Made by a program: the position numbers and the translations under genes
Notes under the pieces: model-generated
Seen by the model: only the letters and a program-made list of their open reading frames with translations
What the model was told of the DNA's origin: nothing
Database searches by the model: none
Shown: piece by piece, positions 2,546-62,012 of the stretch
Numbering within the stretch: position 1 is the first letter of the stretch
Layout: each line of letters opens with the position of its first letter
Origin: an uncultured Jannaschia sp.
GTDB taxonomy: Bacteria; Pseudomonadota; Alphaproteobacteria; Rhodobacterales; Rhodobacteraceae
DNA: 64,000 nucleotides
Assembly: GCA_947494145.1 (NCBI GenBank)
Contig: CANLTZ010000002.1
Span: 1 to 64,000, forward strand
Direction: 5' to 3'

Positions 2546-2785
2546 TCAACCATCGCGCCGCGTGGACACGCCGAGCAGGTAGTAGACGCTGCACCGGCTG
2601 CGGAGTCCCGTTATTGCCCCGAGCAGCCCGAAGACCGTTATGGCGCTGGTAGACCAACCGGGCCACGAGACCAGGTTCACCAACGGGAGGGCAATGAGCG
2701 CGGGTCCTGAAAGGACGCGAAAAACGCTGTCTGCGCCGCCCATATTCTTGGGGAACGTGTTCGTGATGAGCTGCTTCGCGGACAT
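2546..2785 (-). CDS. DUF2892 (YgaP-like) small membrane protein
   Basis: A 79-residue protein with the DUF2892 pattern: an N-terminal FPKNMGGADSVFRVL segment, two hydrophobic stretches, and a C-terminal CSVYYLLGVST that matches the family's CP-LY-LLGI-T ending. It is probably an inner-membrane protein of unknown function. Its start codon overlaps the stop of the upstream dehalogenase pseudogene (TAATG), so the two were probably translated from one transcript. Confidence 0.75.
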   Translation of the reverse strand: MSAKQLITNTFPKNMGGADSVFRVLSGPALIALPLVNLVSWPGWSTSAITVFGLLGAITGLRSRCSVYYLLGVSTRRDG

Positions 2786-2820
2786 TATGGGATCCTTTTG
2801 CGATGTCTTGGAGTGCCGTC

Positions 2821-2860
2821 GCGGTTCTCGAAGATGTTGATCCTGGTTCTTCGAAAACCG
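2821..2860 (+). repeat. Short derivative of the fold-back element
   Basis: A 40-bp inverted repeat with GCGGTTCTCGAAGATG at one end and TTCGAAAACCG at the other. It matches both termini of the ~109-bp element without its centre. It lies in the extreme 3' end of the dehalogenase pseudogene and replaces the normal C-terminus. Confidence 0.6.
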
Positions 2861-3359
2861 TGCTCACCGCCCGTGGCCAGGTGATATTGGGGCAATGTGG
2901 CGAGCCAGGCCCTGAGGGCTTCACCGATGGCATCGGGGTGGTCTTCCTGCACGAAATGGACGCCCGCGCCAAAGCGCATATGGGTCAGGTTCGCGGCGTT
3001 TGCCTCGACATAGCCCACGACGGGTGCGGGCATCAGGGCATCGGGCTCGACCGAGAGCATGAGTTTCGGGATGTCTGTTGAGTAGAGCCAATCGCCATTG
3101 GCCTTAACGACGGTACTCGTTTCAGCGGGCTCACCCGAGATGGGGATTTGGCGTGGCCAGACCAGCGTCGGTTTGCGGCTTTCGGGCGTGGGAAAGGGCG
3201 CGCGATAGGCGTCCATCACGTCTTCGGGCAAGGGGCCAGCGACGCCGATCCTGCCAGCACTTCTTCGACGAAGAAGTTGTTTTGCAGTATCATGTCTTCG
3301 CCCGTGGGGCTGCGACGCGTCTCGAACAATTGCGCGTTTTCGGTGCCCATGGCTTCTAC

Positions 3360-3469
3360 AGCGGTTCTCAAAAAAACCTGAGCCATCAGCTTTTCGTGAA
3401 ACGGTGCAACATCAATGCGATGTCGGGATGTTTTTCGAAAGTACTGATTCAGGTTTTTCGAAAACCGCT
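3360..3469 (+). mobile_element. MITE-like fold-back element, copy 1 (inside the dehalogenase gene)
   Basis: About 110 bp with imperfect arms of ~45 nt starting AGCGGTTCTC and ending GAAAACCGCT, and an apical mini-hairpin ACATCAATGCGATGT. It is flanked by the direct repeat GCTTCTA at 3352-3358 and 3467-3473. Deleting the 115 bp between equivalent points rejoins the host gene in frame as ASLEAMGT. The real target duplication may be shorter than 7 bp, possibly just TA, because element ends and target share bases. Confidence 0.85.
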
Positions 3470-4138
3470 TCTAAGGAAGCGGCGGGGAAGGCGGGCGGGA
3501 TCGCGGCTTCCATGAAGGCAAGCGCGCGGACCTGGCCGGTGCCTTCCGCCTTTCGGGCGATCTCCATCCCCGGGACGGAACCCCAATCGTGGACCACAAG
3601 GACGATCTCGCCCAGTTCGAGCTCGGTCAGAAATGCGCCAAGATACGTGGCGTGGTCTCGGTAGGTATAGCCGATATCGGGTTTGCCGCTGTCGGCCATG
3701 CCGATAAGGTCAGGCGCGATGACGCGGTATTCATCTGCGATATCGGTGATGATGTTGCGCCAAAGGTAAGACGAGGTCGGGTTGCCATGGAGCATGACCA
3801 CCACAGGCCCCTTGCCTTCATCGACGTAAGCCATGGTGGAGCTGAGGATTTCGACGGTTTGCTTGGCGAATGGAAAGCGGGCGGAGGGGGTGTCTGCGGC
3901 GGAAGGCGCGGCGATGAGCAGGACAGCGGTCACGGCCGCGAGGCCGATTTTTTTGGATCGTTTGCATTGGGTCACTCCGTAGGGTTGTGGGGTGAGGTTG
4001 CTGCTGCGTTTATGTGATAGCGAGTTGGATTTTCGCAGCCTTATGGTGCGGATTTGCTCTCCCCGGCCGCCCGTGCCGGGACCCAACCCGCAGGGTGCCG
4101 GCCTGTTGAATCTGTTTCGGCATTAAAGAAGAGGGGCG

Positions 4139-11536: not shown

Positions 11537-11583
11537 AGGTGCTTGCACCCGGGTCGCTGGTTTTGCCATACCGGGGCTGCGTA

Positions 11584-11735
11584 GACGGGAGACTCTGCCC
11601 CATGGCAGGGCCGAAGGAGCAACCGCCCCGGTAAACTCTCAGGCGAACGGACCGCTGCGCGACGACAACTCTGGAGAGACCCTCGACCGAGGGCGCCGAA
11701 GGGATAGCGATCTCAGGCGAAGGGACAGAGGGGGC
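11584..11735 (+). promoter_or_regulatory. Tandem glycine riboswitch
   Basis: Two consecutive glycine aptamers. The first has GACGGGAGACTCTG, GCCGAAGGAGCAA and AAACTCTCAGGCGAACGGAC. The second has CTCTGGAGAGACC, GGCGCCGAAGGGATAGC and ATCTCAGGCGAAGGGACAG. It ends about 30 bases before gcvT, the standard location. Glycine binding to tandem aptamers usually switches on the glycine cleavage operon. Confidence 0.95.
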
Positions 11736-11763
11736 GAGAACACCGCGCGGCGGAGACTTGCCC

Positions 11764-17830: not shown

Positions 17831-17896
17831 AGCCCACACCTGACGAGACGTATCGCGGAACCTGTCTGCTTGGCCCGTTCCGATGATCTCGCCTAT

Positions 17897-18005
17897 AGCG
17901 GTTCTCGAAAAACCTGAAGCATCGGCTTTTCGAGAAACGGTGCAACATCAGTGCGATGGCGGGACGTTTTTCGGAAATGCTGATTCAGGTTTTCCGAAAA
18001 CCGCT
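17897..18005 (+). mobile_element. MITE-like fold-back element, copy 2
   Basis: A 109-bp copy with the same arms and apical loop as copy 1, in the convergent gap between the ParA gene and kpsC. The element's CTTTA end supplies the kpsC stop codon (TAA on the minus strand, 18006-18008). The hairpin could also act as a two-way transcription terminator. Confidence 0.8.
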
Positions 18006-20003
18006 TTAGCGCCATATCCAAGCGTAGCTGGCCAACGCGCCTTGGGCTTTTGAAAGTGCTCTGTTGAACGGCCCCGGCGTGGGCATTGGGCCATAGGCAA
18101 GGCGATGGGCGGCCACTTCGGGGGGGCAGGCCGTCCGGATCACGGGGTCGAAATAGCGCGGATAGGTGATGAGAACGGCGTGGACGAGCGCGTCTAGGGA
18201 CGGGCGGGCGGCGCGGCGTCGGGCAGGCACGTCGCCCCGGTCATGGGTCAGGCCCCAGCCTGCATAGAACGGTGCACCCAGCGTGATCACGGGGCGGTCG
18301 CGCAGTAGGGCCTCGAAGCCCAGGGTTGAGGTCATGGTCCAAATTTCGCTGGCTTTTTCAATCAGTGCGGCAGGGTCTGCCTGGGTGGCGACCAGATCGG
18401 CATCGGCTGCGTCAATGGCCCCGTCTCGCAGCCCGGCTTCCACATCGGGGTGGGGTTTGTAGACGATGAAGGTGTCGGGATTGGCCTGACGTGCCGCGGC
18501 GAGCAGGGCTGCATTGTCAGCCACATGCCCGGTGCCCAAACGGATGGAGGCATCATCGGCCACTTGGCCGGGCACCAGCAGGATCGGGCTGTCGGGCAGG
18601 TCCGGCAATTGGCCCGGAACGTTGTATTTTGTCAGCCGGTCCGAGACAATCTGACGTCTGAGTGCCTGCGCGCGGGCCAATGCCTCGGGCGGCAAGTTGG
18701 CGGCGGCGATGATGGCGGCCTCCATGTCTGAGGGCCGGGTGGGGTCGTAGTAGATACCGCTGCGATCCAGAGCGAGCGACAGGGGCGCGATCAGTTCTGC
18801 CCCCAAGCCACGGGACCGCAGGAACCCGTCTTCCAGATGGGTGACGCCATCGGGCCTGGGGGCGTCTTCCAGCGGATTGGCTGGGCTATCGGTGCCCGCA
18901 CCCCAGACAAGACGGGGCCGCGTGGGGTCATCGCGAAAGGTGACCCGCCGCGACAGGAAGTGTCGCAGCGGCGCGCGCTTCCACAGGCGCATATCAGGGG
19001 CCGACCAGCCCGCGCGGTCGTCGCGCCAGGCGCGGGTGCGGGCTTCCAGGATGCGGATGATGTCCAGTGGGTCACACAGGCGGTCATGGTGCGGGTCGTA
19101 CCAATGGGGGTAAAGCACCATGGCCCCGGCAAAAAGCTGGCCGCGCGTCAATTTGCGCTGCCGCCGGTCCAGCGGTGCGCGGTCATCGTCCAAGCCCCAG
19201 CCGGAATAGAAGGGCTGGCCGAACGTTATGGGCCGATGGCCATGCAAGATCGCCTCGAACCCCAATTGGCTGGTGACGGTATAGACCTTGATGGCGCCGG
19301 CCAGCAGGCCGGCGGGGGGCAAGGGGCGGTCTTCCAGCGTGGCGCCGTGGACGGCATCGGCCTGACTGAAATAGCCGGGGCGGTGGCCCTGCTGGGTTTC
19401 GGGATGGGTCTTGATGAGGAGGCGCGCGCCCGGGTTTTCCTCACGCGCGATCAGCAGCATCTCCCGGAAGGTGGCGTCAGTCGCGCCGCCCAGGCGAACC
19501 GAGGCATCGCCGCGCGTCTGGTCGATGACCAGGACATAACCGGGCTCGGGCAGGGGAAGGTCGGTGCGCGTGGCGGCGTATTTGGTGACGCCAGAGCGGG
19601 TCATTTCCTCTATCGCGGCGCGGGCGCGGGCGATCAGATTGCCATCGTCAAATGGGTGCGTGGCCAGCAGCGTTTCCAGCCCTGATAGCTGGGTGGCGTC
19701 GTAATAGGCGCCGTTTTTGTCGATCAGCAGGCCCAGCGTCGGCTCACCGCCGCGCCCAGGATGGAGCGAGCGTAGAAAGGCATCCTCAAACCGAAGAATG
19801 GGGGCACCGCGGCGGGCCGAGATGGCGGTGGCGCGGCGCGCCGAGGGGCCGTCATGGCCCCAGGCGGCAATGTATTCGTCGCCCTTCGGAAGGCCCGGGC
19901 GCAAATCCACGCCCGCCAGCCAGGCGATGCGTCGTATCCGGCGGCTGAAGAAGCCGCCGGATACGAACCGGGCGATTGTTGGGGCGTCGCCCGGATCGGA
20001 CAT
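18006..20003 (-). CDS. kpsC: KpsC-type beta-Kdo transferase (capsule linker)
   Basis: A 665-residue protein with two homologous halves, as in KpsC, which adds beta-Kdo residues to a lipid anchor for group-2-type capsules. The halves carry parallel signatures: TVTSQLGFEAILHG with FGQPFYSGWGL, and TMTSTLGFEALLRD with LGAPFYAGWGL. It is the last gene of kpsS-kpsD-kpsC, 3 bp after kpsD. Its stop codon coincides with the end of the adjacent repeat element, so the C-terminus may have been trimmed or changed by that insertion. Confidence 0.9.
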   Translation of the reverse strand: MSDPGDAPTIARFVSGGFFSRRIRRIAWLAGVDLRPGLPKGDEYIAAWGHDGPSARRATAISARRGAPILRFEDAFLRSLHPGRGGEPTLGLLIDKNGAYYDATQLSGLETLLATHPFDDGNLIARARAAIEEMTRSGVTKYAATRTDLPLPEPGYVLVIDQTRGDASVRLGGATDATFREMLLIAREENPGARLLIKTHPETQQGHRPGYFSQADAVHGATLEDRPLPPAGLLAGAIKVYTVTSQLGFEAILHGHRPITFGQPFYSGWGLDDDRAPLDRRQRKLTRGQLFAGAMVLYPHWYDPHHDRLCDPLDIIRILEARTRAWRDDRAGWSAPDMRLWKRAPLRHFLSRRVTFRDDPTRPRLVWGAGTDSPANPLEDAPRPDGVTHLEDGFLRSRGLGAELIAPLSLALDRSGIYYDPTRPSDMEAAIIAAANLPPEALARAQALRRQIVSDRLTKYNVPGQLPDLPDSPILLVPGQVADDASIRLGTGHVADNAALLAAARQANPDTFIVYKPHPDVEAGLRDGAIDAADADLVATQADPAALIEKASEIWTMTSTLGFEALLRDRPVITLGAPFYAGWGLTHDRGDVPARRRAARPSLDALVHAVLITYPRYFDPVIRTACPPEVAAHRLAYGPMPTPGPFNRALSKAQGALASYAWIWR

Positions 20004-45363: not shown

Positions 45364-45450
45364 CGGTCTGACCAAGGAACACATCGCCCCTTCGGCGGTG
45401 GCCTGGGCCCCATCCATTGGGTGGGGCCTGGGTGAAAGGCTGGCGTCTTT

Positions 45451-45559
45451 AGCGGTTCTCGAAAAATCTGAGCCATCAGCTTGCCGAGAAACGGCGCAAT
45501 ATCAATACGATGGTGGGGCGTTTTTCGGAGATACTGATTCAGGTTCTCCGAAAACCGCT
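45451..45559 (+). mobile_element. MITE-like fold-back element, copy 3
   Basis: A 109-bp copy in the convergent gap between the porin gene and gshA. It keeps both arms (AGCGGTTCTCGAAAA... / ...CCGAAAACCGCT) with more point changes than copies 1 and 4. CTTTA occurs on both sides. Confidence 0.8.
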
Positions 45560-45579
45560 TTAAGTAACTCCAAACGCCT

Positions 45580-61859: not shown

Positions 61860-61895
61860 GCCCCGCCACGTAAGGCGGGGCAGGGCAGCGTCTAT

Positions 61896-62004
61896 AGCGG
61901 TTCTCGAAAAACCTGAGCCCCCAGCTTTTCGTGAAACGGTGCAACGTCAATGCGATGTCGGGACGTTTTTCGAAAGTACTGATTCAGGTGTTTCGAAGAC
62001 CGCT
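61896..62004 (+). mobile_element. MITE-like fold-back element, copy 4
   Basis: A 109-bp copy between the DUF202 gene and the lipoprotein gene (both minus strand). Closest to copy 1 in sequence (shares CGTGAAACGGTGCAAC and CGAAAGTACTGATTCAGG). All four copies read in the same orientation on the plus strand. Confidence 0.85.
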
Positions 62005-62012
62005 TTGGCGGC

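Follow-up and report, generated by a model that had tools for sequence, protein, structure and literature searches.

Stowaway and other Tc1/mariner-type MITEs are eukaryotic elements that duplicate a TA target, fold as hairpins and have no coding capacity; the RPE repeats of Rickettsia lie in-frame inside protein genes. Among the repeats described in bacteria, RUP, the repeat unit of pneumococcus, is about 107 bp long, with terminal inverted repeats, a TA target and 110 copies in one strain; IS630-type mobilisation has been proposed for it and it inserts in IS transposase genes (PMC3049150, PMC2229807). ERIC/IRU/RU-1, of 127 bp, has TA ends, duplicates TA, forms a stable stem-loop and is mostly intergenic (PMC2229807, PMC2759123). 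Gene 3′ ends are among its possible locations and, in the case of an amidase, the protein was lengthened by loss of the normal stop (PMC2759123). CIR, from Caulobacter and Brucella, is an alphaproteobacterial repeat of about 110 bp with terminal TA, GANTC and two arms joined by a linker (PMC2229807).

Within what these accounts outline, the family described here resembles RUP in its size, inverted ends, TA target and a copy in an IS transposase gene. It belongs, however, to another phylum, and whereas the ends of RUP resemble those of IS630-Spn1 from the same species, no IS sharing the element's ends was found here; the comparison with RUP is by description. With ERIC/IRU/RU-1 the family shares the TA duplication, the stem-loop and a mostly intergenic location that includes gene 3′ ends, but ERIC is enterobacterial and its amidase case lost a stop, whereas the right end of the present element supplies one. 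Size (about 110 bp), an alphaproteobacterial host and terminal TA are shared with CIR, as outlined in the source, and a GANTC (CcrM-type) site occurs in 39 of 47 aligned copies; the two arms and linker of CIR, compared by description only, contrast with one end-to-end hairpin here. Stowaway and Tc1/mariner elements, as generally described, are similar in their TA duplication, hairpin and lack of coding sequence, but are eukaryotic. Unlike RPE, 8 of 72 copies are genic, and the net insert is usually 113 bp, which is not a multiple of three. No report of this family was found in the literature searched, which covered few subscription journals and consisted in part of titles and the starts of abstracts. 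So far as seen, the family is apparently new and its kind, a RUP/ERIC-like IS630-type MITE, is known.

The copy from which we started lies on the forward strand at 3359-3471 of the window, the whole 64-kb stretch of DNA that was analysed. It measures 113 bp, against a consensus core of 111 bp; of its two additional bases, one is close to the left terminus and the other is a C at the right terminus, before TA. The TA dinucleotides at 3357-3358 and 3472-3473 are the two copies of the duplicated target, which was a CTAA site. The inverted arms (3360-3375 with 3454-3469) are 88% complementary and both strands fold much better than shuffles (z of -4.5 and -7.3; 0 of 200 shuffles as good), in agreement with the fold-back element reported in the first-pass annotation. 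Four full-length copies are present in the window, the other three, all on the forward strand, lying at 17893-18009 (including the flanking CTA and TAG), 45447-45563 (diverged) and 61892-62008. Where the interrupted gene reaches its 3′ end, at 2816-2863, there is a short, decayed fold-back related to the element (nhmmer E 3.1e-5 over 2816-2860). An Rfam search of the window gave no match on the element; elsewhere it identified one tRNA and two glycine aptamers, the latter forming a tandem riboswitch at 11575-11738.

The interrupted gene, on the minus strand, is a haloalkane dehalogenase, as had been proposed. Its 5′ part occupies 3474-3963 (start codon not fixed) and its 3′ part 2868-3356 (end approximate). 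ORF 3412-4086 matches Pfam PF00561 (E 1.9e-19) and NCBIfam NF002938, haloalkane dehalogenase (E 5.1e-52), while the stretch 2785-3231 also matches NF002938 (E 2.5e-35). The two halves cover positions 5-138 and 181-292 of the 298 in the NF002938 profile; each falls below the whole-protein cut-off, as expected for pieces of a gene. Homologues were found in 8 of 148 other genomes of the family (E ≤ 1e-30), at 11 loci. When the 115 bp at 3359-3473 are removed, the protein reads ...PPAFPAASLEAMGTENAQLF... and is gap-free at the site relative to all five of the loci that were aligned (L060, L062, L064, L065 and L069). Thus, the earlier statement that this removal restores the frame holds locally, but not for the gene as a whole, which has a second frameshift near 3250-3255. 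At the C-terminus, the stop of the homologues is also missing and reading continues into the short fold-back at about 2816-2863. Since these lesions could have occurred in any order, the insertion is not necessarily recent, nor necessarily the earliest damage, and the gene may already have been dead. The window copy is 96% identical to its best other match (best 40 of 106 blastn candidates scored), and with another lesion in the gene, the suggestion that the element was caught fresh in the act of inserting is not sustained.

Searching the genome and its relatives for the repeat, as the first-pass annotation had recommended, revealed a large family. In its own genome the element has 60 strand matches by blastn (best 40 of 106 candidates scored) and at least 146 with a covariance model (best 150 of 1766 candidates scored). 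At least 97 non-redundant places were counted on the analysed stretches (98 minus one duplicate), including five pieces at contig ends and some short forms, and at least 73 copies are full-length; copy numbers are lower bounds, the best 150 candidates having been scored per genome. The core of the 73 full-length copies is 107-113 bp long (111 bp in 52 of them), too short for a transposase gene. Six copies at different places have identical cores, indicating that the family moved recently. Fold-backs of about 50 bp, with little beyond the two ends and in some cases TA on both sides (L101-L106, L109 and the one at 2816-2863 of the window), are either deletion forms or a separate mobile class. 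Five contig ends lie inside copies: L107 and L113 on contig C21, L048 and L114 on C22, and L047 at the start of C28. The end and start of the contig overlap by 48 bp in C21 and by 69 bp in C22, reflecting either circular replicons or assembly breaks at the repeat.

The alignment consensus (43 rows, one Roseovarius copy included) reads Y-TA-[T/G/C]AGCGGTTCTCGAAAAACCTGA ... TTCAGGTTTTCCGAAAACCGCTT-TA-R, with ends about 20 bp long that form terminal inverted repeats. TA is found on both sides of 50 of the 73 full-length copies, and of 43 of the 50 best scoring, although TA accounts for just 1.5% of dinucleotides in the window. The remaining 23 copies lack TA on at least one side, through decay or misjudged ends. 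As the outer base, 70 of the 73 copies have C or T to the left and 69 have G or A to the right. The GCTTCTA repeat originally read as a target duplication is not one: GCTT precedes the right target in 60 of the 73 copies and is therefore the element's own right end. The true target duplication is TA, at YTAR sites (most often CTAG), as the first-pass annotation had allowed when it mentioned a TA-sized duplication of IS630/Tc1 type.

Three kinds of occupied and empty site further show that the repeat is, or was, mobile. The empty sites are homologous genes of other genomes and plasmids, plus the element consensus, rather than the same site compared between strains. The first is the dehalogenase site, empty in 5/5 aligned homologues. 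The second is on contig C9 (L052), where a copy sits inside an IS630-type transposase gene. This gene matches 164 plasmid records; in the three that we aligned, the element plus one TA is absent, the site reading CTG-GTC in Dinoroseobacter shibae, CTG-CTC in Qingshengfaniella alkalisoli and CTT-GTC in Roseibium aggregatum, compared to C-TA-[element]-TA-ATC in the present genome. In the third case, on contig C15, a full copy has inserted into an older copy, GTTC-TA-[element]-TA-GAAGAACC. The nested insertion is at CTAG where the consensus has CTCG, suggesting a CTCG to CTAG mutation in the older copy. The IS630 gene and the nested copy both confirm the TA duplication.

The element is absent from all 19 congeners searched with the covariance model (best 150 candidates per congener) and from 59 relatives searched by blastn. 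The end pattern, with at most one mismatch, gave two single matches among 344 other genomes of the family; this is chance level, since a backward control matched in at least three genomes. Distant blastn searches of plasmid and phage collections found no element, and the 21-bp terminal pattern did not occur in viral contigs. Two Lachnospiraceae MAGs carry the exact pattern, but the alignment is limited to those 21 bp and we dismissed them as chance matches. A Roseovarius MAG (OX638333.1) has copies at no fewer than 26 distinct places (best 150 of 1872 candidates scored), one of them beside a tRNA-Ala gene. The consensus of this subfamily is 84-85% identical to those of the first genome. The relatives of the IS elements and the Roseovarius MAG point to the Rhodobacterales.

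The window copy and consensuses A and B each fold as one end-to-end hairpin; the minus strand of the Roseovarius consensus has more than one stem. In an alignment of 47 rows (27 of the 73 own copies and all 20 full-length Roseovarius copies), pairing is kept in 87.4% of cells. Cells with a double change number 30, compared to 15.0 in shuffles, whereas, counted by pair, double changes show no excess over shuffles (7 vs. 5.9). One pair has flipped from A-U to U-A in 13 sequences. The hairpin is thus maintained, with modest covariation. Rows dropped from alignment A1 were L056 (the same as L138), L190 (the same as L038) and L023 and L046 (both the same as window copies).

We looked for a transposase with matching terminal repeats, as the first-pass annotation had advised, and found none. 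A MITE usually resembles some IS in its ends, although this is not obligatory. No IS with matching ends was detected at the two loci of this draft assembly or the seven of the Roseovarius MAG that match the DDE_3 (IS630-type) model, the one model used; a mobiliser is therefore inferred. The two own loci are on contigs C9 and C22. The C9 element (L052), itself interrupted by the MITE copy described above, has the ends TA-GAGCGCGTCTGG, which by eye have little beyond AGCG in common with those of the MITE. Its transposase gene is split over two overlapping frames, and the likely frameshift position has a run of A. The C22 locus has no inverted ends by the criterion used. None of the seven Roseovarius loci has paired matching ends; inverted ends were sought at three of them (L191, L193 and L194) and the end motif alone at L197. 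L191 and L192 are identical, as are L194, L195 and L196 over at least the 2.8 kb that they share. L194-L197, four equally scoring DDE_3 matches, represent an IS630-type element with inverted ends AAGCGCGAGAA near TA that resemble the MITE ends only loosely.

To place the copies relative to genes, we used a home-made codon-usage caller on sequence from which the element had been excised. The caller has known errors: L155, L160 and L176 are called intergenic though a Pfam-recognised gene ends on the element, L028 is called right-end although frame scores favour left, and L043, called as a stop-codon copy, is in fact an IS transposase that has been interrupted (its rve domain breaks off at position 38 of 102). 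Of 72 own copies used (out of 73), 52 are intergenic, 8 are genic, 10 lie in a stop codon with the right end towards the gene and 2 with the left end, compared to 107, 72, 6 and 12, respectively, for 197 control YTAR sites. Genic positions are thus depleted (8/72 vs. 72/197, Fisher P 4e-5). The 20 Roseovarius copies are 13 intergenic, 0 genic, 6 right stop and 1 left stop, compared to 82, 76, 2 and 7 for control sites.

The share of stop-codon sites among non-genic copies is not above control in the own genome (12/64 vs. 18/125, P 0.53), but is in Roseovarius (7/20 vs. 9/91, P 0.009); the pooled effect is weak (19/84 vs. 27/216, P 0.03). The idea that stop codons are sought beyond what YTAR preference and selection provide is accordingly unsupported in the own genome and supported in Roseovarius. 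The stop-codon sites can be attributed, at least in part, to YTAR targeting plus selection. The caller places 19 of the 92 copies of both genomes, including the false call L043, in stop codons, the gene lying on the right rather than the left by 16 to 3 (15 to 3 without L043, P 0.008). In the own genome alone the ratio is 10 to 2 (P 0.04), or 9 to 2 without L043 (P 0.07), and frame reading combined with Pfam gives 10 right-end vs. 3 left-end genes (P 0.09). Control sites lean the opposite way (right to left, 8 to 19), so that the difference from control is exaggerated; both the stop-codon and orientation tests are post hoc.

A frame-score method found a gene ending in phase at the element in 11 of 21 confident calls on the right and 3 of 12 on the left, compared to 12 of 111 in the control. 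Ten of the 11 right-side genes were scanned, having been chosen because their stop adjoins the element, and each could be assigned to a Pfam family (Lhr-type helicase, AcrB-type pump, MarR, ATPase inhibitor zeta, methyltransferase, FMN-dependent dehydrogenase, MatE, 2OG-Fe(II) oxygenase, PMSR and 3-hydroxyacyl-CoA dehydrogenase); the eleventh is L043. Their stops are TAA in eight cases and TGA in two. At least ten copies therefore adjoin the stop codon of a recognisable gene, with the right end usually completing TAA. On the left, three of five proteins scanned have a family (short-chain dehydrogenase, RmuC and acyl-CoA dehydrogenase); in five of six cases the protein runs on for YSGSRKT or YNGSRKT and then stops, and in the sixth TAG follows immediately. 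Among the better own copies, 56 of 58 begin their right end, as read from the gene, with A, and so do all 20 in Roseovarius.

For two right-side genes we compared the stop with that of the congeners. In 18 of 19 congeners the Lhr-type helicase stops at the same residue as here, and in the remaining one it is two residues longer; the congener stop is TGA in 16, TAG in 2 and TAA in 1. Here the stop is TAA, made of TA and the element's first base. For the 3-hydroxyacyl-CoA dehydrogenase, the distance between the last FY and the end is the same in 15 of 19 congeners and one to five residues greater in the others; its stop is TGA in 18 of the 19, and TGA here too. In both genes, then, the element lies in or at the native stop. 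Since most congeners use TGA, which is not a YTAR site, we infer that this lineage once had a TAR stop. In the 3-hydroxyacyl-CoA dehydrogenase gene, TG stands in place of the expected TA, which may be due to a later change or to TG having been the target itself. It is conceivable, though doubtful, that the element is a stop-codon-healing MITE, steered by YTAR into TAA and TAG stops, with its right terminus maintained because it re-forms TAA on insertion. Stop healing does not by itself account for the right lean in Roseovarius (6 to 1), where copies mostly carry A at both ends (17 of 20 at the left).

Could these hairpins instead be kept for an RNA role at gene ends, as terminator, 3′ stabiliser or processing site, with mobility accounting for their spread only? 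The stop-codon copies with their favoured orientation, the conserved pairing with its excess of double-change cells, and the 25 of 46 intergenic own copies (gene called on both sides) that lie between converging genes would all fit such a role. However, control intergenic YTAR sites are also mostly between converging genes (35/69), the excess disappears when double-change pairs are counted, the own stop-codon share does not exceed control and a pattern scan found no terminator-like site in the window copy. We consider this explanation improbable.

The palindromic, multicopy and mostly intergenic nature of the repeat also recalls REP/BIME-like palindromes moved as single-stranded DNA by a RAYT (Y1) transposase. 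REP/RAYT elements are not known to make a TA duplication, whereas here TA is duplicated at YTAR sites by an element with long terminal inverted repeats. At 111 bp, it is also longer than single REPs, given as 20-40 bp in the part of the literature that we draw on (PMC3733652), and this origin is very unlikely. That the sequence is an ancestral part of the dehalogenase gene has nothing beyond its position in its favour and is refuted by the five aligned homologues, continuous across the site, and by the same sequence at dozens of unrelated places; we give it practically no chance. By far the most probable explanation is that the element is a non-autonomous IS630/Tc1-type MITE with a core of 111 bp, duplicating TA and mobilised in trans, which has interrupted a gene in the window. 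In this scheme, a transposase supplied in trans would join the element into the TA of a YTAR site, most often CTAG, and thereby duplicate TA. Genic copies would mostly be lost by selection, or genes avoided as targets. The copies that remain are intergenic or sit precisely in stop codons; read from the gene, the right end there adds an A to TA and gives TAA. In the window, a copy occupies a CTAA site of the dehalogenase gene, which it interrupts.

Globally, our data point to a recently active IS630-type MITE in one alphaproteobacterial species, with clean pairs of empty and occupied sites. As it is absent from the 19 congeners searched, one could date when it arrived and spread. The stop-codon sites suggest, in a concrete and testable way, how dozens of insertions can be absorbed by a dense bacterial genome, one end of the element restoring what the insertion splits. 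Stop healing, if true, would let the element settle where genes end and leave the protein unchanged, in a genome in which an insertion near a gene would otherwise mostly do harm.
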